Shown: positions 1 to 48,085 of the stretch, piece by piece
Layout of the letters: every line of letters begins with the position of its first letter
How positions within the stretch are numbered: position 1 is the stretch's first letter
Source: Isoetes taiwanensis
Lineage: Eukaryota > Streptophyta > Lycopodiopsida > Isoetales > Isoetaceae
Direction: 5' to 3'
Assembly: GCA_021234155.1 (NCBI GenBank)
Contig: JAJEKV010000010.1
Coordinates: 20,918,833 to 20,982,832 of the forward strand
Length of the DNA: 64,000 nt
Position numbers and translations under genes: made by a program
The notes under the pieces: model-generated
Told to the model about the DNA's origin: nothing
The model's database searches: none
The model's input: only the letters and a program-made list of their open reading frames with translations

Positions 1-155
1 CACGTCATCAATCCGCTTTCAATTTTTCAAAACCCAAGCTTACATAGAAAATGATACTTCGCGCCATGGAGTTCCCGGTCCTATGAATTTTTAGAAAGAA
101 TTTACAGGTATGTTCTTATTTTATCTCTGAGATATGCAATTATTTCTGTAAGAAG

Positions 156-2842
156 ATGACAACAGAGATCAGAATTGTCTTACCTGAAGAATATGCAGTT
201 ACTTGGAACAAAAAACGTGGAGGCTTCAAGGTTAGAGTAAATGAAGCTTTACTGAGGTCTCAAGGAACTAAGAATGTCGATTTGTGGACACGTGGAGATA
301 TTTATCACAAGGATCCAATTACCGGTAAGCTCCCCGACTTTAACTCTGTTACTAGTTTGGTTAAATTCGTATGTGAAGGGAGAAATGGCTTGTTGGGCTA
401 TTGTGATAACATGAAGAGATATATAGATCAGCTTTGTTGCATAATTGGACGTCATAAACATGAAATTGAGTCTATGAGATCTGATATAAAGCAGTCATCA
501 ATAGATAAGTGTTCACTGGTAAAAGAAATTGAATGCTTGAAGAAAACTTTAGTCCAAATGCAAAATGAAAATATGCTGAAAAATTTTGTCATTAAGCAAG
601 CAGAGAATGAGACGTGTCATATCCAGAATGATTTGATGCGGGCGGAGTCCTCAGTGAAAGTTCTAGAAGCTCGTTTGAAGAGATTTAAGAAGACTGCAAT
701 GGGAATGCATGAGAGAAAGAAAAATTTGAAACCCATACATGCATTAGCACCAAAAGAAGGAGCAGCAAGAAGGAGAGTTTATGCAATTAATCAAGTTCTG
801 AACACAAAAAAAGGAAAGGGGTAGCAAGAAAAAATATGGGAAACTTTTTACTTAACATGGCTTCACGAGATGAGATTCTTGCTCTACTAAACGAGCCATG
901 CAATGTAGCATTGAAGAGAGATGTACTAGACATGGTAATAAATAGAATAGAATAGAATAGAATAGGTTTTTTAGTATCCACAGAGACCGATTGGCCTATG
1001 GGATCCACTAATGTCAGAAGTAAAGGAAATATATTCAAATATGGATGCAAATGAGGTCCAAACCACTTGCGATACTATTGGATTAAGCAGACAAGGATAT
1101 AGAAGCCTATTCAAACCCTTTCATGCCGCATTAAAATCTCTAGGCACTAAGAAGGTTATAATTCCGCGTCCATATACAGTTGAGAGCATTAGAAGAGAAT
1201 ATGAAAGTTGAGGAGGTTCTTGGAGGTATGCATTCAATTCAATGTAGAGTCTCAAGCATTTCAAAAAAAAATCGCACTGAATGTGATGTGATCGGTCTTA
1301 ACGAGAAAAACAACATTTGGTTTGATTTAGAAACTATTCTCAAACTCATGGTTGTGTTTTATAATTTGCGGTCTTCTGAGATGGAACAATTGGATATCTG
1401 CATTAAGCTCGACGAGATGGAGCTTACGAGCAAGGCAAAGTATGAAAGAGTCTCTTTTGTTCTTGTGAACTATGCCATGGGACCAAGTTATGGAGCACAA
1501 CTATGCCTGCCCAAGAAGAAGAGAAATCCTGAGTTTTTTTCCGTACAATCTGAGGAACATACTTGGTGGCTTGATATGTTTCAAGTTCAGAAGGAGAACT
1601 TTTCAGTCCTAAGGTGGGTGTTTGAACAGACTGATACCCCAAGGATTATTAGTTTGTATGAATCTGGTGAATTATTGCAGGTGGATGGCTTAGGATCATT
1701 TAAGGTGAGATTTCATTTGGCTTCCGATTTAAAAACAGAGAAAGCTATGTATAATGTTGCTAATACGGCTGCTCAAACTTGCATTAATTGTATATTTTGT
1801 ATGTATAAACTAAAAGAAAAAAAAAAAGGGAAAGAGTTTTAGTACTATTTGCAAGCAGGATGCAGCTCCAGATAGACACTTAAAGGACGAAAACTTTGAG
1901 CCAATTTTGCCAATTCCACTACAGCGAGTTCATTTTTGTACTTTACATGCTATGGTTAGTATAGTGGAGAAAATGATACATCATAGTTGTATGTTTGTAT
2001 GGAATTTTAAAAGCGAGAAGGACAGGAAAGAAGGGATTGCACGGGTTGAGAAAGTGCTATCAGAAGCTGGGCTTCATGGTGGTAATGTAAAACTTGAAAA
2101 GGATTTGAAGAAATCAGTAAAAAGCTCTGTACCATGCAAGGTATCCTTGGGAGGTGATAAGGCAAGACACTTTTTGAAAAATGTGGATTCAAAGAGAAAG
2201 GGAACATTTGACTTTGGTAAGAGGCTAGTTGAGGCTGAAGCTGAAAGGGATAGGACGGATAGAGCCAATGCCACTATAAGGAAACTAGATGCATGTAATG
2301 CATTTTCCAACCTAAATGTACTACTGCAAAAACATACATTCACCAATGCAGATAAGGTGGAATTTAAACAGCCCGTCATAAAGTTTATAGATGCTTACAT
2401 CAAAGCGTGGGGCGAAAACGAGGTCACTCACTATATTCACATTTTGTATGCACATGGACCTTGGTTTATCAAGGAATATGGTAGTCTTGTTGTGTGGAAT
2501 ACTCAAGGCATGGAAAAGTCCCATAAACAGGCCAAACTAGCATTTCATCGTGCTACACAGAGAGGAGGATCTTCACTTGCATCAAGGCCACTCAATCAGC
2601 TTGGAACCTGGTTTTATAGAAGGCTGCTAGCAAGGCATGACATGAATGTTAAAAGAAGAACAAGTCCACAACTAGATAGTGCGTTGAGAGATGCTATCCG
2701 CAAGTGCAAAAGAGAACTATGGGAGAAGTCCACCGCTAAGGAAACACAAAGACAATGGAGAAACAAGCGGGTAAGGATTGGGAAAAATATGCCATCGCAC
2801 ATTAAATCTGTAAGTGCCATTGTCCTTGTTTATTTGATTTAA
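156..2842 (+). pseudogene. DDE-transposase-like gene, unnamed family, copy A (fragmented)
   Basis: Five consecutive coding pieces join into one protein of roughly 800 residues. 156-824 gives a basic N-terminal region with a coiled-coil stretch. 842-940 contains MASRDEILALLNEP. About 975-1,211 and 1,180-1,842 carry IKLDEMEL (D78 of that piece), ASDLK (D183) and a Cys cluster CINCIFC. 1,832-2,842 carries FCTLHAMV, HILYAHGPWFIKEYG and NTQGMEKSHKQ (E203 counted from 1,907). The order Asp, Asp, 'LH', then Glu in QGMEK recalls uncharacterised transposase-like proteins I know from cnidarians and other animals; this is from memory and unsearched. Breaks: stop at 822, a possible GT-AG intron around the AATAG repeat, a frame change near 1,200, and an A11 run at 1,817-1,827. 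A host gene derived from a transposon is the alternative. Confidence 0.6.
941..965. repeat. (AATAG)n microsatellite, copy A
   Basis: Five tandem AATAG units lie inside what looks like an intron of the transposase-like gene, just after a possible GTAATA donor at about 935 and before a CACAG acceptor near 982. The same array stands at 29,823-29,847 in copy B. Confidence 0.9.
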
Positions 2843-4085
2843 TCATCTAATATTGAGATTTTTTACGAATTTAGTCATTTCACTAAGAGTTACATGCTAT
2901 TATTGCAGCTAGGTTTCACTTTATTGTCTGGTTAATTTCTGTCTACAAAATATCCAACTGTAAGCTCTTGAAGATTTTCTTATCTAAACTTAATGTGTTT
3001 CCATACTCTATCATCCTATATGAATGTATTCTGAAAGGTAGCATAGGAGCTGCAAATAGCGCAGGATGGTGCTGCCCCTGTACTCCTTCATCCTACATGA
3101 GTTATAGTAGGTGGAGCTGAGGGACGTGGTGATAGAGGTCTGCTCATATTGCACTAATAATATAGGCATGCATCATATTTATGAAGGGATGGCTTTTGCA
3201 CGAGTTCTGTGAGCTTATTTTCTGTAATTGATTATTACAGACTGTCTAATTCTTGCTTGCAGATTAAATTTGTAATGTGCAGAGCATGCTGGGTAGTGCA
3301 ATATATATGCCAGAGATCGTTGGCTAAAACCAGGAGGTTTCCTTAGAAAAACATTGACTTGCCATTGGCCTATAGGAACAACACACTGATTTGAAGATGA
3401 TAGGGATAGATATATGGCACTAAGCTTTGACAATGAGCGTAGTCCATTCTGCCGTTATGGCTTTTGAAAGTGTGTTAAAAGTGTTCATAAAGTAGAAAAA
3501 GGAGAGTTTATCCAAGTTGATGTTTATAGAATCATAGAGTATGCCATTAGACGTGAGCTGAAATACAAGATTATATGACTGAAATACAAGGTTTACAACC
3601 TCTTCATTTTGTTCCTAAAGAATATAATCTATTTACTTGCAAGAACATTCAAAGTTGTGATAGTAAAAGTAGAAGTTCGTTCTGCATGTGCCAACACTGA
3701 CTTGCAAATACATGTACAGTATCTCAAATTTTGAAAAATGCATAAATTTTCTGGGTCTCTATGGGCTTACGCTCTAAGCATGTCAGATGGTTGCATCTAG
3801 GGACATTACTATTTCCTTGAAGATATTGTGACACCTTTTGCTGGAAGTATTATCCAATCTGTAAGGTAATTTTGAATTAGTATGATGCCAACACATACTC
3901 TTAACCTTAACTCATCACTAACGTTTACCATAAGTGATTGGCCTCTCAAAATTTGTCTTGAAAACAATCTAGAATACAATCTAAAATTTGTCTAGCAATG
4001 ACAGAGTATATATAATCTAGGTCTTAAAAACATACTAGAATACTGCCTCAGGTGGAAAAATCAAAAGCTTAATAGGGAAATCATT
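2843..4085. other. Non-coding, no recognisable feature
   Basis: AT-rich sequence follows the transposase-like reading frame, with stop codons in all frames and no motif I recognise. It may hold the 3' end of the transposon. I found no terminal inverted repeats by eye. Copy A lacks about 34 bp near 3,903 that copy B retains. Confidence 0.5.
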
Positions 4086-4202
4086 TTGCATGGAACAATA
4101 ACACAGAGCATCTCAAATTTGGGCATCCTCACAGCATTAGCTCCTCAATTTCATCCGAGGATTCATAGAGAGACAAAGGCAGTCTGCAACTGCACTTTGC
4201 GA

Positions 4203-4435
4203 ACTGCACTTACTTTCCTTGATGATAATGGAAAATTGCAAAATATGTCAAGAAGGTGCACCAGAACAGGTTGGTAAGTTCATAAAATGTTGCTTAATTT
4301 GGATTGCTTATTTTGCTATGTTTGATGCAAATATTGGAGCTTGCAAACAATAAAAACGAGATTGCCCATAAAGTGCATGAAACAATTTATAGGTTTGCAG
4401 AATGTGGGTTGAGATCTCTTGCTGTTGCTATTCAG
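4203..4435 (+). pseudogene. Plasma-membrane H+-ATPase (P3A type) fragment, copy A
   Basis: Two exon remnants of the nucleotide-binding domain of a plant plasma-membrane proton pump. Exon one (4,203-4,269) reads TALTFLDDNGKL and, after a small frame change, GAPEQ, which belongs to the family's KGAPEQ signature. Exon two (4,331-4,435) is exactly 35 codons, ILELANNKNEI...FAECGLRSLAVAIQ, followed by a GT donor. The acceptor before exon two reads CAA where CAG is expected. A full pump has about 950 residues and ten membrane segments; no other exons are visible nearby, so this is a captured or decayed fragment. Family identity is strong, function unlikely. Confidence 0.8.
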
Positions 4436-4588
4436 GTGAGCTTATTTCATAAATGGTTGTCAAGTTTAAAGCATGGTTTCATCTTGATAAGCCACATGGA
4501 GGATACATCCCTTGATGTGCAATGTAGGTATTGTATTTATATCTTTTCATGCTCTATGCCAGAGTTTGAGTTCATTCTCCATATACTG

Positions 4589-5345
4589 AATGTCGTCGAT
4601 TTGCGTAGCGAATCGGCATTCTTGCTCAAGACGAGCATGCATGCATTGCATAAGGCCGCCGATGCATGCATCGCGACGCGCTTTGGGGCCGCTCACGTTA
4701 CGCTTAGCTACTTATTGCGAGTTCTTCATCGACGCTTCACTCGGCGCTTTCCTCTTCTCTCGCCAGCATCTTTATTCTTTTGATTTATTTCCGTGCGTGG
4801 AGGGGCTTCTTCCCCGCCTCGTTTGGCCAATTTGGCGCTGCTTTCCTGCTATCCTTTTCGCCTTTAGCCTTCATCCCGCGACCTTCGCCCCGATCCTAGT
4901 TTGTTAAGGAAGTCCTTTGGTATTCGGGCTTTTGTTGGTTTCATGCGAGTCGCAGCAGGTAAGAATGTCGCCGATTCGTAGCGAATCGGCATTCTTGCTC
5001 AAGACGAGCATGCATGCATGCATCGCATGCTTTTGGGCCGCTCAAACGTTGGGTGTTTGCTACTTATTGCGTAGTTCTTCATCGACGTTTACATCGGGCG
5101 CTTTCCTCTTCTCTCAAAGAGCATCTTTATTCTCTTTGAACCCACCCTCCCTTCTTTGTTTACTATATTTTGTACAAGTTCTCGCTTTATCATGTTTTTC
5201 CACCCGTGGGTGATGCTTTTTTCCACCCAATCGGGTGATGCTATTCTTTGGTATGTTTCGCTTGTTGTTGGTGATGTGCGGTGTACAAAGTTGGCGAGCC
5301 ATCCGCTTTGACTTCTCCATGCACGGTTTTTGGGAGTGATTCTAT
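4589..5345. repeat. ~375-bp tandem repeat with hairpin, copy A
   Basis: Two units start at 4,589 and 4,964 (period 375). Each begins with an inverted repeat around GCCGATTCG / CGAATCGGC, then ATGCAT/GCATGC runs, then a shared segment reaching the TTCCTCTTCTCTC motif. In unit two the hairpin is perfect: nine-base arms at 4,970-4,978 and 4,982-4,990 with a TAG loop. A further piece (TTGGTTTCATGCGAGTCGCAG) at about 4,935 recurs near 5,612. The block is more GC-rich than its surroundings. No protein is supported. Confidence 0.75.
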
Positions 5346-5364
5346 GCCTTACGCTTGTTCAGTT

Positions 5365-5440
5365 CCCCTTGCCGGGCTTTATCACTAGGTTTTTCCTCGA
5401 AAACCCGAAGGGCGGGTTTTTAATCCCTGATAAGCTTTCT
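5365..5440. other. Nested inverted repeat, copy A
   Basis: A small stem GGTTTTC-CTC-GAAAACC sits inside a wider pair related to GCTTATCA / TGATAAGC. The outer pair is exact only in copy B (about 34,288-34,352). In copy A the left arm reads GCTTTATCA. It could fold in RNA or mark a mobile-element end; no element boundary was identified. Confidence 0.4.
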
Positions 5441-8400
5441 GTACAGTACATCAGCCACTCATCTATTAGCATTGTATTTGTTTTTGGGGTCCAAATGTTA
5501 TAATTGATTTTCCCTTTATTTTTCGTGGGTAGTTCGCATGTGTGCGGCTATCCACTGTCCACCATTGTAGAAATCTGCTGAGATGAATGAGAAGCCTATC
5601 GGGTGCTTTGTTGGTTTCATGCGAGTCGCAGTGCAAGAATGATGGGATTCTTGAAAGTGATGGGCTTCACATGCAATCTTTATGATCAGATTCGAGATGG
5701 TCGTGCAAATATGCCAGCCAAGGTGAGCATTAGGCTCTGAAGCAAGCCAATTTGTTTCTCTCCTCCTTCGTTTTGTATGCATAACTTAAATTGGCTTAAT
5801 TTATATCTTACAACTAGTTAATTGCTTTAATGGTAAGATTTAAAACCATGTTGTTGCTAGAACTTCCATCTACTGCTCGTGGGTGCCTTTCATTGTTAGA
5901 ACCTTAAGAAATCTGACATATCTTTCACAGACTGTATTAACAAGTTGCATTTGTTCTAAGAACCTTGATAGGGCATAAAGCAAATTGCTGTTAAATTCAT
6001 ATTCTTTATCAAAGATCTAGCAGGCCCTTTACATTGCCACAAACGCTTGTTCATCTAGTACATGAATGTCTAGTAGCTTTGAGGTAGTTATGAAGGTCGT
6101 GATATCCAAAGAAATGTGCATTAGAAGTTGAAGGTTTGCAGTTAAGTGTTTTGTTTCAGTTAGAATCTTGCTTATTTTGTAAGTGTTTAAATAGGTCTAG
6201 CATGTGCATACTAAACACACAGAGAGGAGGCTCTTCACAAAGCTAAGGTGCACACAAAAGGTCTTTTCATTGTTTATACTGGAATATTGATTTGTAAATC
6301 ATATTTGTCAATACAGACTTAATTGACACTTTTGCTCGTCAAGTCAGCAATGATTGTTTCAGGCTATGTTGGTGCGATGTTGTAGATGTTGGGCCTTAGT
6401 TAAACAGCTTGGTAATGAAGATAACAGGGTCTCCGTGTAAATGCTGGAACCGTGTAAATGCCGGAATATGTTACGACTGAACGAAGGTGTAAATTACATG
6501 AACATGCAAGGGTTCACATATTTGGTCTGTACAACTGCAGCAGATGTGATAGGGTAGTAGTTGTGCTAGTGTGAGATGTGTATGGTCTGCAGGTTCAACA
6601 TGGTCTGCAAGTCAGTCCTGTTTTTTCTCGCATAAAAGTCTCAGATTTGCTAATTCGCAATGAAGTACAAAGAGTATACTATATTTGGTGCTCTCGTAAG
6701 CTTGGGTAGTTGGTTAATTTGGATTTAATATTGATGAATATGGCGCATACTATAGCTGGGAACCATTGTCTTTTGACATGGGTTCTAGCAAAACTCTAGT
6801 TATTGGGTCCTGATGCATGGACAGTTACAGGGTTATTGGTGCTGCTTCTACAATTTTGCCTAGGTAGTGCTCATAGGTTTGTGAAGTCCTGCATCCGATC
6901 TGGTGCCTGCTGGAGAAGCAATTTTGTGCTTGTGGGTGCATCGTTATGAAGGTGGCTTAATGGGACAGCTGAAAAGATTTTTACAGCAACTGGACTCTTT
7001 CCAGCACCAAGTAATCGTCAATGAGTACCTTTCTGGCTTGGGCATCATGGTAACATTTCAACATTTACAGCTGTGTAAACTATCTAACAAGGTGTACTTG
7101 TATTGCAATATGCTTGCATGTTTGAAATGTGGCTAATAATTTTATCCCTAAGTGATTAGGTACAGTTGAAATGTGCTCATAGTGGGACCCAATTGTTTCA
7201 TGCAAGTAGACTGGATATTGTTCAAATGATTTTTCATCATGAATTTATGCGCTTCGAAATTGCAGTGGCAAGAGATTACGAACTTGTAAAAAAGATATAA
7301 TCATTGTTGTATTTTGACATACTGCTGCATGAGCAAATTGTCAGCCTGTCGAACGAGTTTCTCATTATACTTGTATGACAGATCTTCTGGGCTGCCGCGC
7401 AGGGTGCCTTACTAAGGCAGAGGCTATACTTTTAGGCTTGTCACAATTGACATTATTGGGTTGGCTATTTTACGAAGTCCTTCCCAAATTTACATGCGGC
7501 TTTCACTTTAGAGGAATGCATATACGTCCTGGAGTCACAGCAGCAAGACATGCCTACTATTCGTGTGCAAGTTCTAAAAACACAGTGCTGTTCACGTGGA
7601 AGCTAACACACTTTATTGTTTATGAACTGAAATATTGTATCTCCATTGTTGTTTATGAACTGAAATATTGTAAACTGTTGCTACAGTGGAAGCCACTTAG
7701 CTTAAGAATGCTGACTGGAAATATCATGAAGTTTAGAAAATTGACTACAACCTTATACCAGTTTTGCCTGGTGAAGCATTAGAAAAAACCACTCCGTTGG
7801 AAACCCATGTTTGACAGTTATATAAGAAAACCACTCTTTTTCGCTGAAAATCGATGTATGTAATTTACCTGCATGTTTATTCAAAGGACATGGAAGGGGA
7901 TTTACCATCACATTTTAGATTTAATTGCAGGGCATTTCTGGCAACGCATAAATGGGACTGATCAACCTAACACATAAGAATATTGCAATTCAAACTAAAA
8001 TGGCTTGTGAAACCCTTTTGAGAAAATGTCTCCTTACAGAAATAATATATTGATATATACGATTGAGGGCAGAATAGCCCTTATACAAAGATGAACTAAA
8101 TTTTAGTATGTTTCCTTCAGCTCAAATGTCTGGAAAGACTTTATTTCTCTAAAGGACTGCAATCATTTTCACTTTATACCTCTAATATTTACATGTAATT
8201 TTGGCTATCTATTGGTATTCTAATTTAATCATAATTCTTTTCTTGATGATAGGCTAAAGACTCTCTGAAAGAGGAGAGCTTTTTCTCACTGTTGGATTTG
8301 TCCTGTTTAGATCGGTTTGCCAGTTAGTCTTCACCTTGATAGCAAGCTAATCTTTTTAAAAAATATTGCAGCCGTAGATTAGCACATGTAGAAACTGTAA

Positions 8401-9439
8401 TTCAATGTCGTCATCCATGTCTTAGCAACAGCCTTCCTTAATAACTGGTAGTATCTAAGGTAGAGGCTCCACCTATGAAGGTTCTTGTATAATTTTGTAT
8501 CTTCTCTTTGATGGGACTTGTAAACAAGCTTTCAGGAAGGATGTCACCATTCTGATTTGAAATTATTGTTAGCAAACCAAGAAGGCTATTTAACAATATA
8601 AATAAGGTTATATACCTTCGCTGCTGAGAATCTTTAGGAATGTTACTTTGGTCGACATCGTCACTGTTGTCTTTGTCCAGAACATTGAGAAATCCAAAAG
8701 TTTCATCATCAGGAAATTGAATTTCTGTAAGTTAGAGGGCATTGGTTAATATAGAAGTCAAATATCTTTGGTGCAAGCAAGTAGTTCAATGGTTACTGAC
8801 CTTCAGTACATGTTTCTTGGGCCTTGGCTTGTGTAAATAGCCTTCTCTCTTGTAGTTCGTCCCTTTCACACTGGTTTGAAAGTACTCACTTTTAACCATA
8901 AAACTTGGAGGACAAAAGTAAATCGCTACTCCAAGCCTTTTGCTTTCAGAAAATCATTCATGTCATCTAGAAAGATATTTAACATTGAGCACATATTTTT
9001 GAGTTTCATAATCAGAACCGAATCAAAGATATTGCACAAGGGCAAAGGCTTCTACATGCATGTACCTTCCCTCGTTTTTTATGCCCAAGGTCACAACAAG
9101 TCGTTAAGATTCTCTGAAAGTCATAATGAAGTGCCAAAGGAAACTTTGATGGAGAATGTACTTCCCTAGTATTTTCCCCGAGCTCTTCAACAACAAGTAC
9201 ATGGGCGCTTCATAACCATCGAAAGTGGAGAACCATTAGCTCCTAGCATTTTTGCTACCGCTTTCAAGATATGACATGCTCAAACATAACCTTTCAAACC
9301 ATATGATCTCGCTATATATACGCTATACAAGACAGCTTGTAAATAGCTTGCATCAAGACAGCTTCTTTGGGAATTGAACCCAAATCCACCAGAGAACCTT
9401 TTATTTTATTTTTTCCTTCATTAAATACATCAAATATCG
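5441..9439. other. Non-coding stretch with small open frames, no gene recognised
   Basis: Open frames at 6,903-7,136 (77 codons) and 7,375-7,782 (135 codons) occur in both copies, but neither resembles a family I know. The second contains a 36-bp direct repeat and differs between copies by frame-preserving noise. On the minus strand, 8,880-9,260 has coding-like pieces (for example LSDGYEAAHVLVVEELQE in copy B) that may be 3' exons of the gene starting at 10,728. No RNA gene was seen. Confidence 0.4.
7611..7672. repeat. 36-bp direct repeat x2, copy A
   Basis: The segment TTTATGAACTGAAATATTGT occurs twice at a 36-bp spacing, giving the peptide repeat VYELKYC in the overlapping frame. Copy B carries the same at about 36,518-36,579. 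Confidence 0.75.
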
Positions 9440-10728
9440 TGATCAATTTTAGGGTATGAGGAGGCATACAATTTTGCATCGGATTATGTATTCTCTTCTA
9501 TATCCTACTTTCTTATCGTCCCATTAGGAAATGGAATTCAAAAGATCCAAATATCGACTCCAACAACCTTCTGCATTCTGATAGTGTTCATACCTCTTCC
9601 ACATTGAAAGGTTGAATCTGATCATTGTCCATATGCACTAATTCTAATTCAATTAAAGGAGTCCTAATGCGATGTTCCTCCACTGCCTTCCAACACAAAC
9701 GACCATTTTCTTGTTGCCTTTTCTTTCTTTGAACAAAGGAATTGCAATATAAGGTCTGCTTTGGTAACCTCAGACCGAAAGATGCAATTCCACATTATTT
9801 ACTTCAAAACCACAATAGCGTAAACAAAAGCATGCATACCCGAATATGAAATCAAAACCACAATAGCGTAAACAAATGCATGCATACCGAATATGAACCG
9901 GCCGAATCCACCTCACAAACAGCTTGTTTGTCCACCTGTTTCATGGATCCGTTTTCTCCATTCTCCATGGAAAATCTGCTCAAGAGAGATTTCACTAAGA
10001 TCTTGAAAAGTGTATGTCTGTGGTGCAATCCTGAACGTCTTCACATCTTTGAACAAATAAGCAAATACACTTATTGGAATAAAGGCTTTTGCCCCAGCTC
10101 GAACACCGACTCTTTTTGTCAAGAACCTTCTTACTTCCCCTGCTAATAAGCATCGAAATGCCATAACAACATGCATATTATCGATGCCTTTAGAAACTGG
10201 AGATAGTGTAGGGCGCCTACAAGCCGCCAACTTTCCCAAATTTGCCATTTGATTTTGTGTAATGATATTTGTGGAACCAGACACCTTGATCCCTGAGAGA
10301 AGACAAAGAAATGTGGGAAATAACAAATGCCCGATAGCATGATGATGGACCTCCAAGACACTTGTAATGCTTTATGCTGGAACTGTATTCTTAAACTCAG
10401 AGGAACAAAGATAATTCACTTCAAGCTTTGGAAATGTAGAACTCTCTGCAATATCCTCCTCCATCATATCTTGAGGCCCATATGCATGCGCAACAACGAC
10501 CTCCTCTACACTTTTGCAGCCTTGACTAATCACAAAACCTAAGACATGTGCTTTCCAATGCTTTGTCAAATAATTTAGCTTTCTTTTTTTTACTGCATGG
10601 CAATCGTGCTGTGCAGGCCTCATTGTCACCCAAGAACCCATAGAGACATTCAAATCGATCCATTCTCCATTTTCATCCTTCCCATTCCTTAGTGTAACTT
10701 GATTAATTTGTGATTGCTTAGTAGCCAT
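9440..10728 (-). pseudogene. Unrecognised multi-exon gene, copy A
   Basis: The start is chosen at ATG 10,726-10,728 (MATKQSQINQVTLRNGKDEN). The first exon continues with GSWVTMRP, VISQGCKSVEEVVVAHAYGP and LEVNYLCSSEF, then after a one-base frame change VISHISLSSL, NMHVVMAFRCLLAGEVRRF and GAKAFIPISVFAYLFKDV, ending near 9,920. A later exon encodes RQQENGRLCWKAVEEHRIRT and TPLIELELVHMDNDQIQPF, followed by one TGA and then ESMTGSFEFHFLMDDKK and EYIIRCKNCMPPHTL. The N-terminal part has the look of a BAH-type chromatin module (a Gxx-V opening, a V-x-WFY-like HAYGPQDM, then an LCSSEF strand), but this is weak. The same frame break and TGA occur in copy B, so at least those predate the duplication or arise from the same error. 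Confidence 0.5.
9804..9899. repeat. 48-bp tandem repeat x2, copy A
   Basis: The unit starts TCAAAACCACAATAGC at 9,804 and again at 9,852. Copy B has the same array at 38,706-38,801. On the minus strand it reads as a 16-residue repeat (FIFRYACICFCYCGFD), but it most likely lies in an intron of the unrecognised minus-strand gene. Confidence 0.85.
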
Positions 10729-10990
10729 TATCTGTGCAAAGAACGAATACATCATTGAACTAAAAAGCCACTGAATATATTATACTATAGGGCTGAAAAT
10801 ACTTATCTTCAATGACTACCAACATGTAATCTCAAGAGAGCAATCTGCACAATATCATGCAAATGCTCAATCCTAAATCAAATGAAATTGCAAAATAGCA
10901 GGCCCAGGATCACTCAAATCAGACATATGGGAATCAAAAGTTATGTGCAAACAACCGAACCTTAGGTGCCATCACCAAATAAAAACCCCC

Positions 10991-11097
10991 GGGTGCGGCA
11001 CCGAGACTTCCCGAGAGGTTACCCATCCCAGTACTATTCCGGCCCACGCGCGCTTAACTTCGGAGTTGATGGGATCCGATGTGGTAGCGCTGGTATC
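10991..11097 (-). ncRNA. 5S rRNA-derived sequence, copy A
   Basis: The minus strand reads ATACCAGC...GGATCCCATCA, then AAGTTAAGCGCGCGTGGGC (A box), ATAGTACTGGGATGGGTAAC (intermediate element and C box) and GGAAGTCTCGGTGCCGCACC, which is plant 5S rRNA from about nucleotide 12 to the 3' end. The first ~11 nucleotides, which pair with the 3' end in helix I, are absent and replaced by unrelated AT-rich DNA, so a functional ribosomal RNA is unlikely. A T5 run lies just downstream in copy A. Isolated 5S sequence outside an array is typical of Cassandra-type terminal-repeat retrotransposons or 5S-derived SINEs; I could not find LTR borders. Confidence 0.85.
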
Positions 11098-11499
11098 TGT
11101 TAAATGATTTGTGAATGTAGAAACAAGTTTCAAGCAATATGCTTGGCCAAGTAGTGCAGCCAAGAATTTGATGCTGGACGTACATTGACTTCTCCCGAGA
11201 AAATATTGCCAACGCCTAGTAAGTGTCTATTTGCTATTTTTATTTAATGTAAGTATTCTGTAAGTTTAATTTTGTGCCACTTTCAATTTACAGCTCCCAA
11301 ATTCACAAGCAAAGACTGTTGATCCAAATTATCTCCTCGACAATGAAGCCGAATGACATGACTCTGGCTGAATCCTACTTGAAGAACAGGGTGAAGCCAG
11401 AGAAAAATGTTCAATATGTGTTTAATATGTTTTATATGCTTTAAAAATGTTGAAACTTATTGATATTTGGATGCCACGAGGACATCCAAAAAATTTTAT

Positions 11500-12020
11500 A
11501 TATGACTTACCTCTTTTAATATATATGCCCTTACTGGAAATGTAACTTGGTCATAGTATCTTACTAGTAATAATGTAATGATGTATATATACTATGGTAC
11601 TAATGTATACATACCATGTAATAATGTATGCTATGAATGGAACATTGGAACCATGTAATACCATGTAATAATGTATACATTATAGTACCATGTTCATATG
11701 AATACCATAAGAATGAATGTAATAACATTATATATTCTCATATGTTATATAATACCATTTGTAGGAGGATAATAATGAATAATAATGAATAATAATAGAG
11801 ATTTATTACCAAATATCATAACGAATTTGAGAATGAATAATAATGGTATTATAAGAATGAATGTTCATATGTTCATTTCTAAGAATGGAACAAGAATGAA
11901 CATATGAGAACATATAATGGTTTGAACAAGAATGGATGTATGAGAATGACTTGAACAAGATGGTTTACATAAGAGAAAGAATGGTTTATATATGAGAAAA
12001 GAATGGTTAAAGTATAAAAT
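11500..12020. repeat. AT-rich low-complexity block, copy A
   Basis: Imperfect short repeats built on AATGTA, ACCATGTAATA, GAATAATAATG and GAATGAATG run for about 500 bp, with few other bases. Copy B holds the same block at about 40,420-40,940 almost unchanged. No coding signal. Confidence 0.8.
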
Positions 12021-37300: not shown

Positions 37301-38340
37301 AATTCAATGTCGTCATCCATGTCTTAGCAACGACCTTCCTTAACCCTTTGGTAGTATCTAAGGTAGAGGCTCCACCTATGAAGGTTCTTGTATAATTTTG
37401 TATCTTCTCTTTGATGGGACTTGTAAACAAGCTTTTGGGGGAAGGATGTCACCATTCTGATTTGAAATTATTGTTAGCAAACCAAGAAGGCTATTTAACA
37501 ATATAAATAAGGTTATATACCTTCGCTGCTGAGAATCTTTAGGAATGTTACTTTGGTCGACATCGTCACTGTTGTCTTTGTCCAGAACATTGAGAAATCC
37601 AAAAGTTTCATCATCAGGAAATTGAATTTCTGTAAGTTAGAGGGCATTGGTTAATATAGAAGTCAAATATCTTTGGTGCAAGCAAGTAGTTCAATGGTTA
37701 CTGACCTTCAGTACATGTTTCTTGGGCCTTGGCTTGTGTAAATAGCCTTCTCTCTTGTAGTTCGTCCCTTTCACACTGGTTTGAAAGTACTCACTTTTAA
37801 CCATAAAACTTGGAGGACAAAAGTAAATCGCTACTCCAAGCCTTTTGCTTTCAGAAAATCATTCATGTCATCTAGAAAGATATTTAACATTGAGCACATA
37901 TTTTTGAGTTTCATAACTGTAAACTGAATCAGCATATTGCACAAGGGCAAAGGCTTCTCTACATGCATGTACCTTCCTGTTCTTTATGCCCAAGGTCACA
38001 ACAAGCTGTTAAGATTCTCGGAAAGTCATAATGAAGTGCCAGTGAAACTTTGATGGAGAATGTACTTCCCTAGTATTTTCCTGGAGCTCTTCAACAACAA
38101 GTACATGGGCTGCTTCATAACCATCAGAAAGTGGAGAACCATTAGCTCCTAGCATTTTTTGCTACTGCTTCAAGATATGACATGCTCAAACATAACCTTT
38201 CAAACCATATGATCTGCTATATACAGTTATACAAGACAGTTGTAAACAGTTGCATCAAGACAGTTCTTTGGGAATTGAACCCAAATCCACCAGGAGAACC
38301 TTTATTTTATTTTTTCCTTCATTAAATACATCAAATACTG
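34356..38340. other. Non-coding stretch, copy B
   Basis: This matches 5,441-9,439, almost identical from 34,380 to 36,050. It has the same unassigned small frames at 35,809-36,042 and 36,282-36,689 and the 36-bp direct repeat near 36,518. No gene is assigned. Confidence 0.4.
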
Positions 38341-39630
38341 TGATCAATTCTTAGGGTATGAGGAGGCATACAATTCTTGCATCGGATTATGTATTCTCTT
38401 CTATATCCTACTTTCTTATCGTCCATTAGGAAATGGAATTCAAAAGATCCAGTCATCGACTCCAACAACCTTCTGCATTCTGATAGTGTTCATACCTCTT
38501 CCACATTGAAAGGTTGAATCTGATCATTGTCCATATGCACTAATTCTAATTCAATTAAAGGAGTCCTAATGCGATGTTCCTCCACTGCCTTCCAACACAA
38601 ACGACCATTTTCTTGTTGCCTTTTCTTTCTTTGAACAAAGGAATTGCAATATAAGGTCTGTTTTGGTAACCTGTACCTGAAAGATGCAATTCCACATTAT
38701 TTACTTCAAAACCACAATAGCAGAAACAAAAGCATGCATACCTGAATATGAAATCAAAACCACAATAGCAGAAACAAATGCATGCATACCTGAATATGAA
38801 ACTGGCCGAATCCACCTCACAAACAGTTGTTTGTCCACCTGTTTCATGGATCCGTTTTCTCCATTCTCCATGGAAAATCTGCTCAAGAGAGATTTCACTA
38901 AGATCTTGAAAAGTGTATGTCTGTGGTGCAATCCTGAACGTCTTCACATCTTTGAACAAATAAGCAAATACACTTATTGGAATAAAGGCTTTTGCCCCAG
39001 CTCGAACACCGACTCTTTTTGTCAAGAACCTTCTTACTTCCCCTGCTAATAAGCATCGAAATGCCATAACAACATGCATATTACTGATGCCTTTAGAAAT
39101 CTGAGATAGTGTAGGGCAGTCTACAAGCGTCAACTTTCCCAGCTTGCCATTTGATTTTGTGTAATGATATTTGTGGAACCAGACACCTTGATCCCTGAGA
39201 GAAGACAAAGAAATGTGGGAAATAACAAATGCCCGATAGCATGATGATGGACCTCCAAGACACTTGTAATGCTTTATGCTGGAACTGTATTCTTAAACTC
39301 AGAGGAACAAAGATAATTCACTTCAAGCTTTGGAAATGTAGAACTCTCTGCAATATCCTCCTCCATCATATCTTGAGGCCCATATGCATGCGCAACAACG
39401 ACCTCCTCTACACTTTTGCAGCCTTGACTAATCACAAAACCTAAGACATGTGCTTTCCAATGCTTTGTCAAATAATTTAGCTTTCTTTTTTTTACTGCAT
39501 GGCAATCGTGCTGTGCAGGCCTCATTGTCACCCAAGAACCCATAGAGACATTCAAATCGATCCATTCTCCATTTTCATCCTTCCCATTCCTTAGTGTAAC
39601 TTGATTAATTTGTGATTGCTTAGTAGCCAT
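38341..39630 (-). pseudogene. Unrecognised multi-exon gene, copy B
   Basis: This is the cleaner copy of the gene at 9,440-10,728. Start ATG 39,628-39,630. The first exon is open to about 39,277, then shifts one base and stays open to about 38,830, giving VWFHKYHYTKSNGKLGKLTL and CPTLSQISKGISNMHVVMAF, regions garbled in copy A. After the 48-bp tandem repeat, the exon with RQQENGRLCWKAVEEHRIRT resumes near 38,690, followed by the shared in-frame TGA near 38,490 and the segment ending PPHTLRIDHS. Further coding-like pieces lie at 38,000-38,130. The strand, order and codon pattern look genuinely coding; the product is unknown, perhaps a BAH-like chromatin protein. Confidence 0.55.
38706..38801. 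repeat. 48-bp tandem repeat x2, copy B
   Basis: Units start at 38,706 and 38,754 and differ by one base. Confidence 0.85.
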
Positions 39631-39906
39631 TATCTGTGCAAAGAACGAATACATCATTGAACTAAAAAGCCACTGAATATATTATACTATAGGGCTGAAA
39701 ATACTTATCTTCAATGACTACCAACATGTAATCTCAAGAGAGCAATCTGCACAATATCATGCAAATGCTCAATCCTAAATCAAATGAAATTGCAAAATAG
39801 CAGGCCCAGGATCACTCAAATCAGACATATGGGAATCAAAAGTTATGTGCAAACAAACTGAAACCTTAGGTGCCATCACCAGCGCCCTTCAGCTAAAACC
39901 CTGGTT

Positions 39907-40013
39907 GGGTGCGGCACCGAGACTTCCCGAGAGGTTACCCATCCCAGTACTATTCCGGCCCAAGCGCGCTTAACTTCGGAGTTGATGGGATCCGATGTGG
40001 TAGCGCTGGTATC
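39907..40013 (-). ncRNA. 5S rRNA-derived sequence, copy B
   Basis: The same truncated 5S as at 10,991-11,097, differing by one base in the A box (GCGCTTGGGC here, the usual plant form). The downstream sequence differs from copy A: AACCAGGGTTTTAGC instead of GGGGGTTTTT. Confidence 0.85.
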
Positions 40014-40419
40014 TGTTAAATGATTTGTGAATGTAGAAACAAGTTTCAAGCAATATGCTTGGCCAAGTAGTGCAGCCAAGAATTTGATCTTTGGGCGATA
40101 CATTGACTTCTCCCGAGAAAATATTGCCAACGCCTAGTAAGTGTCTATTTGCTATTTTTATTTAATGTAAGTATTCTGTAAGTTTAATTTTGTGCCACTT
40201 TCAATTTACAGCTCCCAAATTCACAAGCAAAGACTGTTGATCCAGTCATCTCCTGACAATGAAGCTGAGAATGACATGACTCTGGCTGAATCCTACTTGA
40301 AGAACAGGGTGAAGCCAGAGAAAAATGTTCAATATGTGTTTAATATGTTTTATATGCTTTAAAAATGTTGAAACTTATTGATATTTGGATGCCACGAGGA
40401 CATCCAAAAAATTTTATAT

Positions 40420-40940
40420 ATGACTTACCTCTTTTAATATATATGCCCTTACTGGAAATGTAACTTGGTCATAGTATCTTACTAGTAATAATGTAATGAT
40501 GTATATATACTATGGTACTAATGTATACATACCATGTAATAATGTATGCTATGAATGGAACATTGGAACCATGTAATACCATGTAATAATGTATACATTA
40601 TAGTACCATGTTCATATGAATACCATAAGAATGAATGTAATAACATTATATATTCTCATATGTTATATAATACCATTTGTAGGAGGATAATAATGAATAA
40701 TAATGAATAATAATAGAGATTTATTACCAAATATCATAACGAATTTGAGAATGAATAATAATGGTATTATAAGAATGAATGTTCATATGTTCATTTCTAA
40801 GAATGGAACAAGAATGAACATATGAGAACATATAATGGTTTGAACAAGAATGGATGTATGAGAATGACTTGAACAAGATGGTTTACATAAGAGAAAGAAT
40901 GGTTTATATATGAGAAAAGAATGGTTAAAGTATAAAATGC
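40420..40940. repeat. AT-rich low-complexity block, copy B
   Basis: The same AATGTA/GAATAATAATG repeats as at 11,500-12,020, nearly unchanged. Confidence 0.8.
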
Positions 40941-40972
40941 TACATTGAATGAATGAATGCATGTTCAATGGT

Positions 40973-41161
40973 TCACTTTGATGACTTGGATTGTTCAATT
41001 GCTGGCTTTGCACTTAGGCCTGCTAACTTGGCTGCTGACTTGTTTGTTGGCTTGCCTGCTGACTTCTTTGCTGATCTGGCTGCTGACTTGTCTGCTAGCT
41101 TACTTGCTGACTTACTAGCTGATTTGGCTGCTGACTTGGCTGCTGACTTGTTTGCTGGCTT
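40973..41161 (-). CDS. Lys/Ala/Ser-rich C-terminal exon (histone H1-tail-like)
   Basis: The minus strand is open for 62 codons to TGA at 40,973-40,975: KPANKSAAKSAAKSASKSAS, then KLADKSAARSAKKSAGKPTN, then KSAAKLAGLSAKPAIEQSKS. A CAG acceptor-like triplet precedes the first AAG. Such KSAAK repeats are characteristic of linker-histone or other DNA-binding basic tails. No globular H1 domain was found within reach upstream on the minus strand (41,162-42,000), so this would be a terminal exon or a stranded fragment. A simple 15-bp minisatellite (TTGGCTGCTGACTTG) giving this peptide by chance is the alternative. Confidence 0.4.
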   Translation of the reverse strand, partial: KPANKSAAKSAAKSASKSASKLADKSAARSAKKSAGKPTNKSAAKLAGLSAKPAIEQSKSSK

Positions 41162-41439
41162 CTGACATGGACAACAAATCTGTCGATCCTCTAAAATTGG
41201 TTACGGATCAAACGTTCCGGAGGCTGGGAAAAAGTGGCGAGGTTGAAAAAAAAAGTGATGGGTGAGAGGACGTCACGATGAAAGTACGTCAGCACCCGTT
41301 AATCACCCTATGTCGTGCACTACCGAATTGTACACCACCAATAAAAAAAGACCCCCTAAAACAATCATCTTAATAGTGCCAATTTCACATCACCACTCCT
41401 TACTTAAACTCCATGTCTTAGCTAGTACATCTGCTTCTT

Positions 41440-41609
41440 AGAGCCATTAAATGTAAATATAATCCATATGGTATTTTCCTGTGCTCTTCGCATCAAATGT
41501 GTAACATAGTTACTACCAAAAGATAGAGCCATTAAATGTAAATGTAATCCATATGGTATTTTCCTATGCCCTTCACATCAAATGTAGAACATAGGTACTA
41601 CCAAAAGAT
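41440..41609. repeat. 85-bp tandem repeat x2, copy B
   Basis: The same structure as at 12,521-12,690. Confidence 0.85.
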
Positions 41610-42619
41610 AACATCCTTATATCACTGCACATGCTTCTTATAGTCATTAAATATGCACAGTACTTCATAGCCACTTTTCACCTTGTCGTCGTACATAATC
41701 CCTCAAACGTTTTGGGACCATTATTACTTGAACAAGTATCAAGTGTAACAAGTGTACCATAATAATAAAAAAAAGGGGACCTTTAAAAATATGTTCAAAC
41801 AGACTTTTACCCTTCATGGACATTTGCAAAGACCATTTCCGGCCAATATGTAGCCTTAAGCCAAAACAAGTGTAAATTTTGACCTACGCCTTAAAATGAT
41901 TAACATTTAGCAAAGCAAAAGAATCACGAACTTCTAACGAATAACAATTTCCTTTTGTCAATCAAATTATGGTTTTCAGTCAAATATCTAGCTTATAACA
42001 GCAGGTATTTACCAATAAACAAAGGAGTACAATTATTTCCCGGTCTATCATTTATTACCATGGGATCCAATTGCGGGTCTTTGACCCATATTGGAGGAAA
42101 GAATGCAAGTGTAACAACCATGGCCCATTTACTGTCATTCTATTTTAGCAACATCCTTGCACTTGCGCATGCACTTCTATCTAGAGAATAAAACAAAAAT
42201 AACAACGTACTAAGAAAGAAAATATCAAAGAAACAACAAAAGAGAATGAGTACTTGACAAGAATAGAATGACTGCACTTCCCAGGGTAAAAACAATCCAA
42301 TTTTTGGCATACAATAGAATTTCATCTAAATGTTGCAAATGTACCCAAATCGAGGTCTTTTCTGCCATTATTGTACCTTCATTAAGCAGATATACATGAG
42401 GAAAACAATTAGCGGCAAGGTTCTTGGACTTAGAATATTGCAACAACTTATACGGACTGATCTATCCGCCAATTATGTGTTGATCCCAAGCATTCATCCT
42501 TAAACTGTCTCCTCTAGCTTGCTGGAACAACTCCTCATAACTTATTCCATTAGACCAAAGCGCTCCTTTCTTGTAAGTATATATGTAAGTGTGCAAAAAC
42601 CTTATCATTATAGTCCAGG

Positions 42620-43590
42620 CCACAAGAATGGAATTTAGATTGCTTCCACATAAAAGTGAGGAGGAGATGAAGCATTGACACATGAAGATGAACATGTGAT
42701 TTGGTTGCTATTTATGTACACATGGGATTGCATTTGAGGCGGGGCTTCATTTCCCTTGAGGACATTGCGGCATTTTCTCATGCTAGGCTGTGGTGTGGAT
42801 CTTCTTGGCAACACAATAGCCCCAACAACAAAATTCTTTTCATCTCTCCTCCATCAAAACAATTTTCCAACTTTGGATCAGTGGCATCAGCAGTTTGTCC
42901 TCTTCATGCTTTTGCCATATCCACTCCAACAGAACTTGCTCCCAATTATATCTAACACCTTCCTTCCGGATCCACCTCGGGCTAATATCCGGCAGTAAAC
43001 ATCAGATTTGTCACTTGCTTTACCGGTGTATACCAGCTCGGGGGCGATGTATCGAATGTACACCTTACGGTCATGCTTTGCTCTGTTTTGTCATAATCAA
43101 GAGCTTGGCTAGGCCAAAGTCACCTAAATGTGCTCACGAAATTCTTGTCAAAGCGAGGAACATTGGATGCTTTCACATCTCACGTGCCGCGATCTTTTTG
43201 CTCCCATCACGTATGGAGATAAGCAAGCCCATACGCAACTCCCAAGAGTATGTCATGGCTGATTTGCCATGGAAGAATGTTGCGAGGTGCTAAATAGGTA
43301 GTTATCAAGCTGCCGTTGGGCATGTAATCATAGACCAAAAGCAGTTTTCCTTTTTGTGTGGCACCACCTGTGAGACTCTCGGAAGATTCCGATGCCTCGG
43401 ATGGCTTATCACGAAGAAAGTTACGCAACCAATTGCGGTTCTTTTACAGTCGTCTCTTGAAAGAGAACCTTCACGGACTCTTTGTATTACCATCTGCCGG
43501 TACTCCTCTGTAAACTTTCCCAAATCCTCCCTTGCCAAGCATCTTATATCTTTTGTGCTGAAATTCCTGGTGGCTGCCTTTGGTTGTGTG
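42620..43590 (-). pseudogene. L-type lectin receptor kinase, kinase half, copy B (many frameshifts)
   Basis: Recognisable pieces on the minus strand: KGKLLLVYDYMPNGSL and GVAYGLAYLHT (subdomains V-VI), DVKASNV (catalytic loop), GDFGLAKL followed by LDYD, and the C-terminal region near 42,760. Frame breaks are frequent and mostly at different places from copy A. The immediate left flank of the hAT-like insert here keeps GGTTGTGTG, showing the target duplication. Confidence 0.75.
43583..43590. repeat. Left target-site duplication of the hAT-like element, copy B
   Basis: GTTGTGTG directly before the CATAGTTGG terminus. The identical octamer follows the right terminus at 44,770-44,777. Confidence 0.75.
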
Positions 43591-44769
43591 CATAGTTGGG
43601 AGTTAGCGGTTAGTAGTTAGCTAACGGCTAGCGGGAAAATAACGTATAGCGAGTTATTACGGAGGTGATAACGAGTTATCTATTCCCAAAAAACATTCGA
43701 ATTTTAACAATTTGAAACTTGTTTTTACTAACTTCGAATCTGCTGAATTCAAATATGCAATCAGAATTCTCAAACACCTACTCTAACCTACTAAAACTTG
43801 ACAATAATGCCCATACCTGTATTGTCTTATTTGAATTCGGTCTATGTCCTTGAATATCCATCTTTTCCTGCAATGGAGGCCCACATCTACCAACATGTTT
43901 ACTTAAAGGGCAGCATTAACTAAATAAACTTAATTCTTACATTAACAATCCAAAAGTTACATATGTCTTTGAGATTATATGTTCCCACATTGAGTCTGAA
44001 ACAGTAAACATTACTATAACAAATTAAAACATTAATCTGCTCATTTGTGAAGAATCAAGCATCAGCCTTGACGAAAGTGTTTGTAGATTTGGCCATGGAG
44101 GATTATTTTTCTAATCTGCTGCCTGCCTTTGTTCGGGCTTCCGAACTGCAGAGCTTCTAAGAATCAGTCAGCGTTAAGGCCATAAAGTATGCAGCAGATT
44201 CTGTGCTTGCACTCTACCCTAGAACAAATGAAGAAAAGAAAATCCGACCAAGCTGAATTTGAGACCTGGTAACTCACCCTGGAACAAAGTTATAAGAAAT
44301 CGATCTGGAAGAATGTTGGACTCCCTGTGGCAAAGCTGACATGACTCCATTAGCAAGCATTGGCCGCTCAGATGGATATGGAAATCCGTCAGATGAATGC
44401 CAGGTAATCAAGCAAAGAGGAGGAGTAGACCATCAAATCAAATGACTGTGCAACCGGAATGGATTGGATGAACCCAAAACCAGAAACAAGATCGATTTAT
44501 GCTAAGAGACCCAAAACCAGAAATAGGCAAACCGGTTCTTACCTGGGCTGGTGATCTTCGACCAAAACGACCGGATTGATGCTCCAGAAGACCTTAACCG
44601 GATTTGCAGGCCGGAGCAGACGCGAGGAACACAGGGAAATTTGTTTTGGGGGGAAAAAATGGGTCTATTTTTTTTCTGGCGAAACTCATACACGTTATTT
44701 CTCGTTACATTTTTTAATCACGGATAACGCGTTAGCAAATTGGGGCTAACGCGTTATCTGCCAACTATG
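43591..44769. mobile_element. hAT-like non-autonomous DNA transposon in the lectin kinase, copy B
   Basis: 1,179 bp, with termini CATAGTTGGGAG and the inverse of CATAGTTGGCAG, flanked by the perfect 8-bp duplication GTTGTGTG. Its position in the receptor gene is the same as in copy A, so the insertion is older than the duplication. No transposase frame. Confidence 0.8.
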
Positions 44770-45746
44770 GTTGTGTGTATGTGAATTTGGTGATAGGCAG
44801 CCGAATTTCTTCATTAGAGCCTTCCATTTTCCTCCTTTTGTAGCATACGCATCCTGCAGCCAGCAATGAACTGAAAATGAGTGCAGCAATGAGAGCAGCT
44901 ACCACCGGCACAAGTATGCTGCTTTTCTTTTTTACATCTCGCTTAGCCCGCGGTGGAACAGCAATTGAGGTGATAGAATTTGAGACACTAAAGTTCCATG
45001 CGTATAACCTGTGCAACTCAAAGTCATTAGCTCCTGTTGCAGCAGAAAATCCTACATACATGGCATCCTGAATCACTTTGCTGAGGTCAACTTCCAAGCT
45101 GAGTATTATAGTCTCTGGTTTTGTTGTATTCCTTGATAATCTGACTTGGAGTAAATTGCTTGCCGCCATGTAGTCTATCCATGCTGTCAGAGTAAGATTT
45201 TTACTTAACTTCAAGTCGTCTGGTGGAACTGCAGTTACTAGAGATGTTAAGTTATTCACGTCTATTCCAATATGTGCTTCAGCTGGGTCATAAAACTCAG
45301 CATTTTGAAAAGTATCAAATTCCACCGCAAGCAAATGGTTTCTTGAGTCCCCGTTTAAGGATGAATTGAGAAGCCCGAGAAAAGATCCACTGCTATTTGC
45401 AGGCGGGGCTGTATTATTGGGGGTTATAATGAAGGCCATGCCATCTGCTGGATAATAGCCTGTAATATATTGCACAATTTGAAATGTGAAGGAAGTGCTA
45501 AAAGGAAAGAAGCTGGCTGGAGTTTGTTGAATCCAGCAGGTGCACTGGATCAGTGTAGTATACACGCGAAGTGCTGAATTGATCATTCAATGATGAAAGC
45601 TCGATGTGGTCAGAACGCTGGACTGCGGCGCCCCAATGAATGATCAAATTTTGATGTTCAGAATCGAGGCTACTAAGGGAGAAGTTTTGTGATTGGGCAA
45701 GCAGTGGAAGGAGGAGGAAGAGCAAAAGGCGAAGCCTTGGATACAT
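44770..45746 (-). pseudogene. L-type lectin receptor kinase, lectin half, copy B (one frameshift)
   Basis: Identical in layout to 15,851-16,826: signal peptide from ATG 45,746, legume-lectin domain with AVEFDTFQN and HIGIDVN, membrane helix, KRRK, FTYTQ. One extra A in an A-run at 45,500-45,503 (three A in copy A at 16,581-16,583) shifts the frame after about 80 residues. Since the rest of the exon is almost identical between copies, a homopolymer read error is as likely as a true null mutation. Confidence 0.85.
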
Positions 45747-46130
45747 GATGGGCTGCTTCAATCCTGTAACATCCAAATGATCGACTGTAAAGTGGAATCA
45801 ATTTATCTTGTCTCCAAACACTTGGCCTTTAGCCACAATTTCAATTTCACAGGTTTCTTCTGCTCTGGCAATAACTTGTGTGCCAATGCTCAATGTGTGC
45901 AACTCTGTACATCTAAAATGGCCAAGGTCAATCCACATAAATGCTTCCGTGCTGACATGGCAAGATGTTGAACCAGGTTATTCTAGAATTTAAGTTTTGT
46001 CCATAAGATTGTGCGGATAAGGATGCTTTCTGACCATTAACTTGGCAGGAAAGTTTCCATTGGCTTGGACTCTAAATATGGGCGTCCGTTCTTGGGCTTG
46101 TGTAACGGACCTGGCCTCTTGATGGGGCAG

Positions 46131-46152
46131 CATGCGTATTTAAATACGCATG
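46131..46152. promoter_or_regulatory. 22-bp palindrome with TATA-like core, copy B
   Basis: The same palindrome as at 17,213-17,234, followed here by alternating CATGCATG/GTGCGTGC runs that include RY-type CATGCATG motifs. Confidence 0.4.
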
Positions 46153-48085
46153 TATACATGCATGGCATGCATGCGTGCGTGCATGCATGTGTAGAGAGCT
46201 TAAAAGCAAGGGTTTTCTTGTGTTCTTGAGAAGGAGCCTTGCAAAGCTTTTGTAGGAGGCCAGAGACAAATTGCAGAGCATAGAAGGATTCTGTTGGAGA
46301 CACCAAAGAGTCAAGAGCTTGGAGATCACATCAAGAACGGCATCAAACATCTTCTTACAGGTGGGGTTTTGTTGAGTTAATCTGAGGTACATGGGCTGAT
46401 ATCATTGGATTTATGCATGAATTGATAAGAAGGTTTGGCTATGTATGTTCGAGAAAGTATGACATGCAGAAACATCCAGAGGAACGAAAGATGGAATAGA
46501 AGCTAATCTAGATGCATGGTAATTCCTAAAAGAGCCTGGAGTAGGCCGAAATTGATGCAGGAGGAATCTAGTTGAGAAGTTATGGGCTGCAACAACGTTT
46601 TTTTCATGCAACAGACGGAATCATCGCCGACGGAGCCAGAAGATCTGGAAACATCCCGATATGACATGGAACAGGTCGATTTGGGCATTAGAACCCCGAT
46701 GCATTGTGGGCAGCTCCGAAAAGTTGCAACCCGGTCTGTAACCCGATCTGTTTGTTGGTTGTTTCGTTGTTTTATTTGTCCTTTTCCTTGATGTCTTGTT
46801 AACAAATGTCGTGTACACCTTAAATAAAGTTATAAGAAGTGGAGAAATAAATATACAAGGAGTATAAGGGAAAGTATGGAAGTACAAGGGCAGGGATCCA
46901 GCACAGACTATCCACAATAGATGCAGGAGATAGGTCTGATTTGATTATTAGTTATTTAAGTATGCTTTGTTGAATTAAACAAGATAAGGTCCTAAAGTAA
47001 CATGAGGCATTGAACGAGTGGTTCCTGGAGATGGGGTCTGGTTTTATGGTAAGTTGGCAGAGGCTATATTCAGTTGCGGTCATGAGGTCCTGTGGATTTT
47101 CAAGCCAGAAGTGCAAGATTTGGAGTTTCCACATTATTAAGACGCATTAATAAATCTTAAGCTATGGAAAGTGGGTTTTTAATTAGAATATTAAAAAACC
47201 TTAGCTAACAATGGTTAAAAAAGAAATAGATGTTGGAACTTTGGAGATCTGGAGAAGTTGGGCCGGGAGAGCAATATGAGATATGTGGAGTGTCCAGATG
47301 AGGCTATGGCATGGAGCACTGATAGTCTAAGTGTATACATGTAAGTTTCTAAGTTGTTGCATTGTATTTTATCAAAGGCATCATAGCTAATGGATTATTC
47401 CCATGGGAGAATGGTTATGAGGCAAGTATTGCATTGTGTGGATTGGTAGTATCTTTCCTTGTTCAGCAAAGTACGTAGGCGTCGGAGCTACATCAATGAT
47501 AGCCATGCTTGCGACTTCATCGACGTGATTAGATTGTGATCATCACCCGTGTCAGTAAGTTTAGCTACTCCGACATGGTATTGGATGAGAATTATATGTA
47601 AGAAGTATGGTAAGTTACTATGACCAATGGATTTATCAGAAGCTAATGTGGAATTGCATTCCTTAATGGGGGGAATCGCCTTAGCGTAAGCTGTAAGTAT
47701 TGTGAAAATGCTAAGTATGAGATATACTTCTATGTCATTGTAGGGTTCATTGGGAAAGCTACTTCAACAGGTATGGGCAACCTCGACAACGGTATGATCT
47801 AGGCACATGTATAGGGAATATTCTAATGAACTTCACATGTATTGGTCTTTGCATTGTTCCACTGTTGTCTTGGTATTTGATCATGTCTATTGGAACCTCC
47901 GGGGTCGGGCTTCTAGGTTCGGTGGCCTAGGTTGCTTCGGCATGCTCATGTTCATCTCTGATTCTCTGTGGTATTCTTATACTCTGTGACACCGGGCGTA
48001 GTTCTCCTGGCAGGGATTGCTACGTCAGTCAACTCTTGTGAACTCCCATGGTAAGAGGTGTGCCAGACGTGGGCTGAGAGGGTAT

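Follow-up and report, generated by a model that had tools for sequence, protein, structure and literature searches.

Default basecalling models of the Guppy era misread 5-methylcytosine in the motifs CCAGG and CCTGG, and such Dcm sites accounted for about 70% of the consensus errors in bacterial nanopore assemblies, errors that were abolished by training on methylated DNA (Wick et al., 2019, PMC6591954). Sequence errors have also been recorded as giving rise to homotype false duplications (PMC9516828). The v1 assembly of Isoetes taiwanensis (1658.30 Mb; 204 scaffolds, 909 contigs) was produced from R9.4.1 nanopore reads of native DNA called with Guppy 3.1 flip-flop, by means of miniasm, polishing with racon and pilon, Bionano scaffolding, gap filling with LR_Gapcloser and purge_haplotigs (PMC8566536). 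We analyzed a window of 64,000 nucleotides of this genome (G000:C908:20918833-20982832) and searched 1,658,258,908 bp in 1110 sequences. The window contains two neighboring copies of one stretch, whose differences are very probably strand-specific nanopore base-calling errors at methylated CHG (mainly CAG/CTG) cytosines of a locus that was itself probably doubled falsely. As a phenomenon this is of a known type, the modified-base nanopore consensus error, and the errors do concentrate in the methyltransferase context CAG/CTG.

The copies, A and B, lie head to tail about 48 bp apart and form a duplication of about 28.9 kb (Table 1). An earlier sequence-only reading had recognized the two copies and was right on their presence, and their extent proved larger than it had described, as A starts 9.65 kb upstream of the window and B ends at 48,086. 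Fourteen stretches of at least 300 bp, summing to 8.2 kb, are identical in A and B and separate the patches of differences, so that the background divergence between the copies appears to be near zero. No N is present in positions 1-64,000, and the pipeline used for the assembly suggests that the junction region was possibly gap-filled (PMC8566536). When compared by eye with both flanks, the 48 bp of the junction displayed no convincing homology, and we infer that two contig ends meet there. Window positions 5857-6258 have two partial relatives (92 and 88%) on another scaffold, 42 kb apart (L003 and L004, C1025:20687473 and 20729387), which may represent another duplicate pair, true or false.

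Table 1. Position of the copies, miscalled patches, reading frames and repeats (window positions unless a contig is named).
Feature	Position	Strand	Remarks
Copy A	1..19282, plus 9.65 kb upstream of window	+	errors of + strand type, mainly in 3' half toward junction
Junction between copies A and B	19283..19330	.	about 48 bp
Copy B	19331..48086	+	errors of - strand type, mainly in 5' half toward junction
Main miscalled patch in B	19331..33480	-	as printed on +: CAG to CGG/CGA, CTG to TTTG/TTG
Miscalled patch in A	5600..7300	+	CTG to TCG; CAGC/CAGT to CAAAG
Main miscalled patch in A	8900..12300	+	takes in the broken GCTGAC array, 12,138-12,257
Mixed patch	13400..15560	.	interleaved signatures of A (+) and B (-)
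Last 2 kb of A	17176..19282	+	86% identical to B; errors attributed to A
Lectin gene region	15600..17170	-	0 of 63 CAG/CTG sites altered; copies differ in 2 columns over 1.57 kb
L-type (legume) lectin frame, copy A	15846..16877	-	343 aa; PF00139, E 1.1e-66
Same lectin frame, copy B	44765..45586	-	shortened to 273 aa
Three open frames (245, 226, 342 aa)	87..2842	+	intact in A; broken up in B, where at most 154 aa remain open
Repeat element (LTR-like), B version	23163..27799	.	1.5-kb direct repeat at each end
5S rDNA arrays	C13:281392-304506; C907:40703529-40709667		loci L054, L056-L064; most units with strand-specific miscalls

Differences between the copies are not spread evenly over sequence contexts. 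Within positions 1-4560 of A, 54% of the CAG trinucleotides are altered compared with a mean of 7% over all trinucleotides, and with B as reference 35% of the CTG are altered in A 5480-12600, again against a mean of 7%, whereas control trinucleotides such as CAT/ATG are altered at about 0-1% in the same zones. At most 2 bp from a CAG/CTG, the rate of differences reaches 0.160 versus 0.030 elsewhere at 0-4.2 kb, 0.078 versus 0.005 at 5.6-7.3 kb and 0.186 versus 0.016 at 8.9-12.6 kb (p from 1e-14 to 1e-60). Eight of the nine zones compared have an odds ratio between 2.5 and 15.8 near CAG/CTG (at most 2 bp), with p from 1e-9 to 1e-60, and the remaining zone is the lectin gene, in which no CAG/CTG is altered; the mismatch rate is thus clearly far from equal across trinucleotides, in line with the sequence-only reading. 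The examples that it had put forward were all recovered no more than a few bases away from where they had been placed, namely CAGTG/CGATG at 653/29537, CAGCCC/CGACCC at 2370/31247, AATCAGCTT/AATCGACTT at 2598/31476, ACAGACTG/CAAATTTG at 3237/32119, and the array of GCTGAC that is irregular in A and regular in B (41,056-41,176). The alternation of affected patches between the copies, which it had also noticed together with the near-identical sequence between them, is borne out by 36 runs, compared with 87 expected under shuffling (minimum 61). Its claim that differences sit at CAG/CTG holds for most of them, with some exceptions: an insertion of 36 bp in B compared with A (3904/32784), an indel tract (17236-17480 in A, 46154-46280 in B, longer in A) for which the error rule does not account, and one extra A in a homopolymer (16580 in A, 45500 in B) that truncates the lectin frame of B. 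The 36-bp indel and the indel tract could be haplotype differences.

The changes follow fixed rules on the miscalled strand, where CTG becomes CCG, TCG, TCA or CG and CAG becomes CAA, CAAA or CAAAG. Where one copy is clearly the better, 173 of the 282 CTG sites of that strand are altered, the share of CTG hit in zone 1 being 79%, and 84 of these 173 turned into strings of the CCG/TCG/CG type (CCG 48, TCG 20) against only 4 into TTG or CTA; the better copy being defined as the one that keeps CAG/CTG, the direction of change is partly circular there. Isolated single-base changes on the miscalled strand comprise 54 T>C, 5 A>G, 16 G>A and 10 C>T, and swaps of adjacent bases such as CAG>CGA recur between the copies. 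An observation that fits methylated CHG cytosines less well is that CCG, which is also a CHG context, is altered at none of 16 sites in zone 2 and often in the 5S units described below. With a copy and strand signature that was defined after inspection of the A/B differences, A carries 71 signatures on the + strand versus 22 on the - strand and B 108 on the - strand versus 21 on the + strand (Fisher, 1e-19). Similarly, the trinucleotide error spectrum of the zone where B is bad correlates with that of the zone where A is bad better after reverse complementation (Pearson 0.63) than without it (0.38). Signatures are also unevenly distributed along the copies: A position 4500 divides those of the A+ type into 11 before it and 60 beyond it, and those of the B- type into 89 and 19 (Fisher, 1e-19), the worse halves being the 3' half of A and the 5' half of B, which both adjoin the junction.

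The 5S rDNA arrays on C13 and C907 provide a test at a locus unrelated to the window and with a known true sequence; like the strand split, it is free of the circularity attached to the choice of a better copy. Of 48 units scored, 9 are perfect and 39 imperfect, and the latter have their altered products in common, on a single strand and in agreement with the error table of the window. CCAGT is intact in 16/48 units and otherwise mostly replaced by CCAAAG or CCAAG, TCTGA became TCGA in 25/48 units and GCTGG is often GCCGG or CGG, while the error at CAT/ATG amounts to 0.9%. The errors are thus strand-specific, with repeatable products that recur in these arrays; both arrays, however, contain errors of one strand only, which counts against the explanation that we prefer. 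Sixteen dispersed 5S copies outside the arrays present an ordinary decay pattern (G>A 43, C>T 17), their CAG/CTG being nearly intact. An unusual unit (CCGGGA..AG end) occurs in both the C13 and the C907 array, and the former may be a version of the latter that escaped purging, in which case the two would not be fully independent.

The miscalled CAG/CTG cytosines are probably methylated, because CAG/CTG is the core of the Dcm site CCAGG/CCTGG, because the lectin gene escaped the errors and because the genome encodes a chromomethylase-like gene. None of the 63 CAG/CTG of the lectin gene is altered although it lies inside a bad stretch, as expected of an unmethylated gene, but better polishing of a unique gene could look alike. 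The chromomethylase-like gene possesses, on separate exons, a methylase motif above the Pfam cut-off, an SGCGG motif and a chromodomain match just below its cut-off (24.7 vs 25.1 bits). It is found with equal scores at two places, L052 (C61:40699) and L053 (C1026:7442183), C61 being a separate sequence, and this pair is possibly a single gene assembled twice. On the whole, the miscalls at modified CHG cytosines that the sequence-only reading had proposed are supported by the unequal rates, the rule-like products, the restriction to one strand per copy, a direction opposite to decay and the recurrence in 5S rDNA. The strand split of the errors and the probably false nature of the duplication had escaped that reading.

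Two other origins of the differences have to be weighed against methylation-induced miscalls. CHG sites in methylated plant DNA mutate faster than others, and gene conversion can leave a patchy identity, so that A and B might be old duplicates that truly diverged through methylation-linked mutation or gene conversion. Such decay affects both strands and yields C>T together with G>A, the pattern of the dispersed 5S copies, whereas T>C prevails over A>G here on one strand (54 to 5), swaps of the CAG>CGA kind recur, the sign of the error depends on copy and strand, and the products reappear in the 5S arrays; methylation decay was therefore rejected as the source of the A/B differences for its wrong direction and for the strand asymmetry, and real divergence as a whole is hardly credible. 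It is less far-fetched, but still improbable, that the R9.4.1 model is weak at CAG/CTG as such and that methylation is unnecessary: the error table is context-specific, and the strand-specific errors of telomere repeats stem from similar current profiles and not from methylation (PMC9414165). On the contrary, the failure of default models at methylated CCAGG/CCTGG is documented and is repaired once they are trained on methylated DNA (PMC6591954), and 63 of 63 lectin sites remain intact within a bad stretch, a contrast that better polishing could mimic.

The duplication itself is likely false, a single locus having been assembled twice, because the error-rich halves of A and B both face the junction, the copies abut on one scaffold and the end of A is only 86% identical to B. 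We give a smaller though appreciable chance to a real and recent tandem duplication of 28.9 kb, in which only the base differences would be methylation-induced and the reads would have been sorted by strand between two true copies. The clean head-to-tail structure and the few indels, which are not error-like, would agree with it, and the 8.2 kb of identical stretches suit a very young duplication, yet the 36-bp indel and the indel tract represent divergence outside the error sites. A true duplication accounts less well for two error-rich halves facing the junction and for the roughly 48 bp of unmatched sequence between them, in an assembly that went through Bionano joining and gap filling (PMC8566536), errors being a known cause of homotype false duplications (PMC9516828). 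Since a few differences (the 36-bp indel and the indel tract) lie outside CAG/CTG, there is also room for the two versions being two haplotypes.

Under the preferred reading, a locus assembled twice with methylation-induced miscalls, the basecaller would misread CHG cytosines on the affected strand, turning CTG into CCG/TCG/CG and CAG into CAA/CAAAG, and these errors would persist in the consensus wherever short-read polishing did not reach. The same locus would have been assembled in each of two contigs whose ends overlap, and scaffolding would then have placed these ends side by side. Reads of each strand would fit one version better, leaving + errors in A and - errors in B, and Illumina reads would align to the locally better version and leave the other one unpolished, hence the alternating patches.

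The same artefact may extend to repeats. In the LTR-like element, CAG drops from 66 in the A version (-5800 to -1088) to 28 in the B version (23,163-27,799) and CGG rises from 64 to 112, whereas CTG (39 vs 38) and CCG (69 vs 61) are nearly unchanged. Among the copies of this family (loci L014-L041 and window 23163-27799), CAG (4-29 per copy) is traded against CGG (17-35), CTG and CCG varying less, which suggests the same artefact genome-wide in copies that were sampled with a query bias. Pairwise signatures in 32 LTR-like copies are uninformative on its frequency, as their ranking depended on how closely they resembled a query that was itself miscalled; in addition, CGG>CAG between such copies also corresponds to CpG decay, which confounds the signature counts.

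The gene content of the genome is that of a plant, with lectin, PPR and replication protein A frames. If miscalls are the cause, the frames fragmented in B and the cut lectin frame are probably artefacts, and most apparent broken genes of the locus would probably be artefacts of the assembly too, because the copies would be miscalled and one stretch probably assembled twice. Gene duplications and pseudogenes annotated at such loci would be false, and repeat families and 5S arrays would acquire artificial subfamilies, so that their ages, copy numbers and selection tests would be wrong. Conversely, any nanopore plant assembly can be screened for an excess of CCG/TCG replacing CTG on one strand, a signature that would point to unpolished or falsely duplicated stretches and provide an indirect sign of CHG methylation. 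More generally, unpolished DNA in nanopore plant assemblies might keep a strand-resolved record of CHG methylation, and errors might sort reads by strand and thereby create false tandem duplications, a proposal for which we see the chances as evenly balanced. If it is true, a first CHG methylation map of this lycophyte could come from the assembly alone, and such indirect evidence would be of some use because lycophyte chromatin has received little attention (PMC10952607).

In the literature that we searched, a search that was not exhaustive, no paper tabulated CAG/CTG miscalls in plant nanopore data, and a strand split of errors between copies was not found described. The closest described system is that of the Dcm-site errors in bacterial nanopore assemblies (PMC6591954), where the CAG/CTG context dominates the consensus error as it does here; unlike Dcm, the present context is plant CHG without a requirement for flanking CC/GG, in a eukaryotic assembly and with a methylation that we infer. 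Native plant DNA read with the same pore generation is known to lose accuracy, a loss blamed on methylation absent from the training and addressed with species-trained basecallers (PMC9749173, PMC7501810); these studies give an overall accuracy, unlike the context-specific table obtained here, and the main text of PMC9749173 mentions neither CHG nor CAG nor CTG. Strand-specific errors in the calling of telomere repeats (PMC9414165) similarly have fixed products that differ by strand, but they were explained by the current similarity of the repeats. Finally, as in homotype false duplications (PMC9516828), read errors separate two versions of one sequence, often on the same scaffold, whereas the errors at this locus are of the methylation type and the versions are split by strand.
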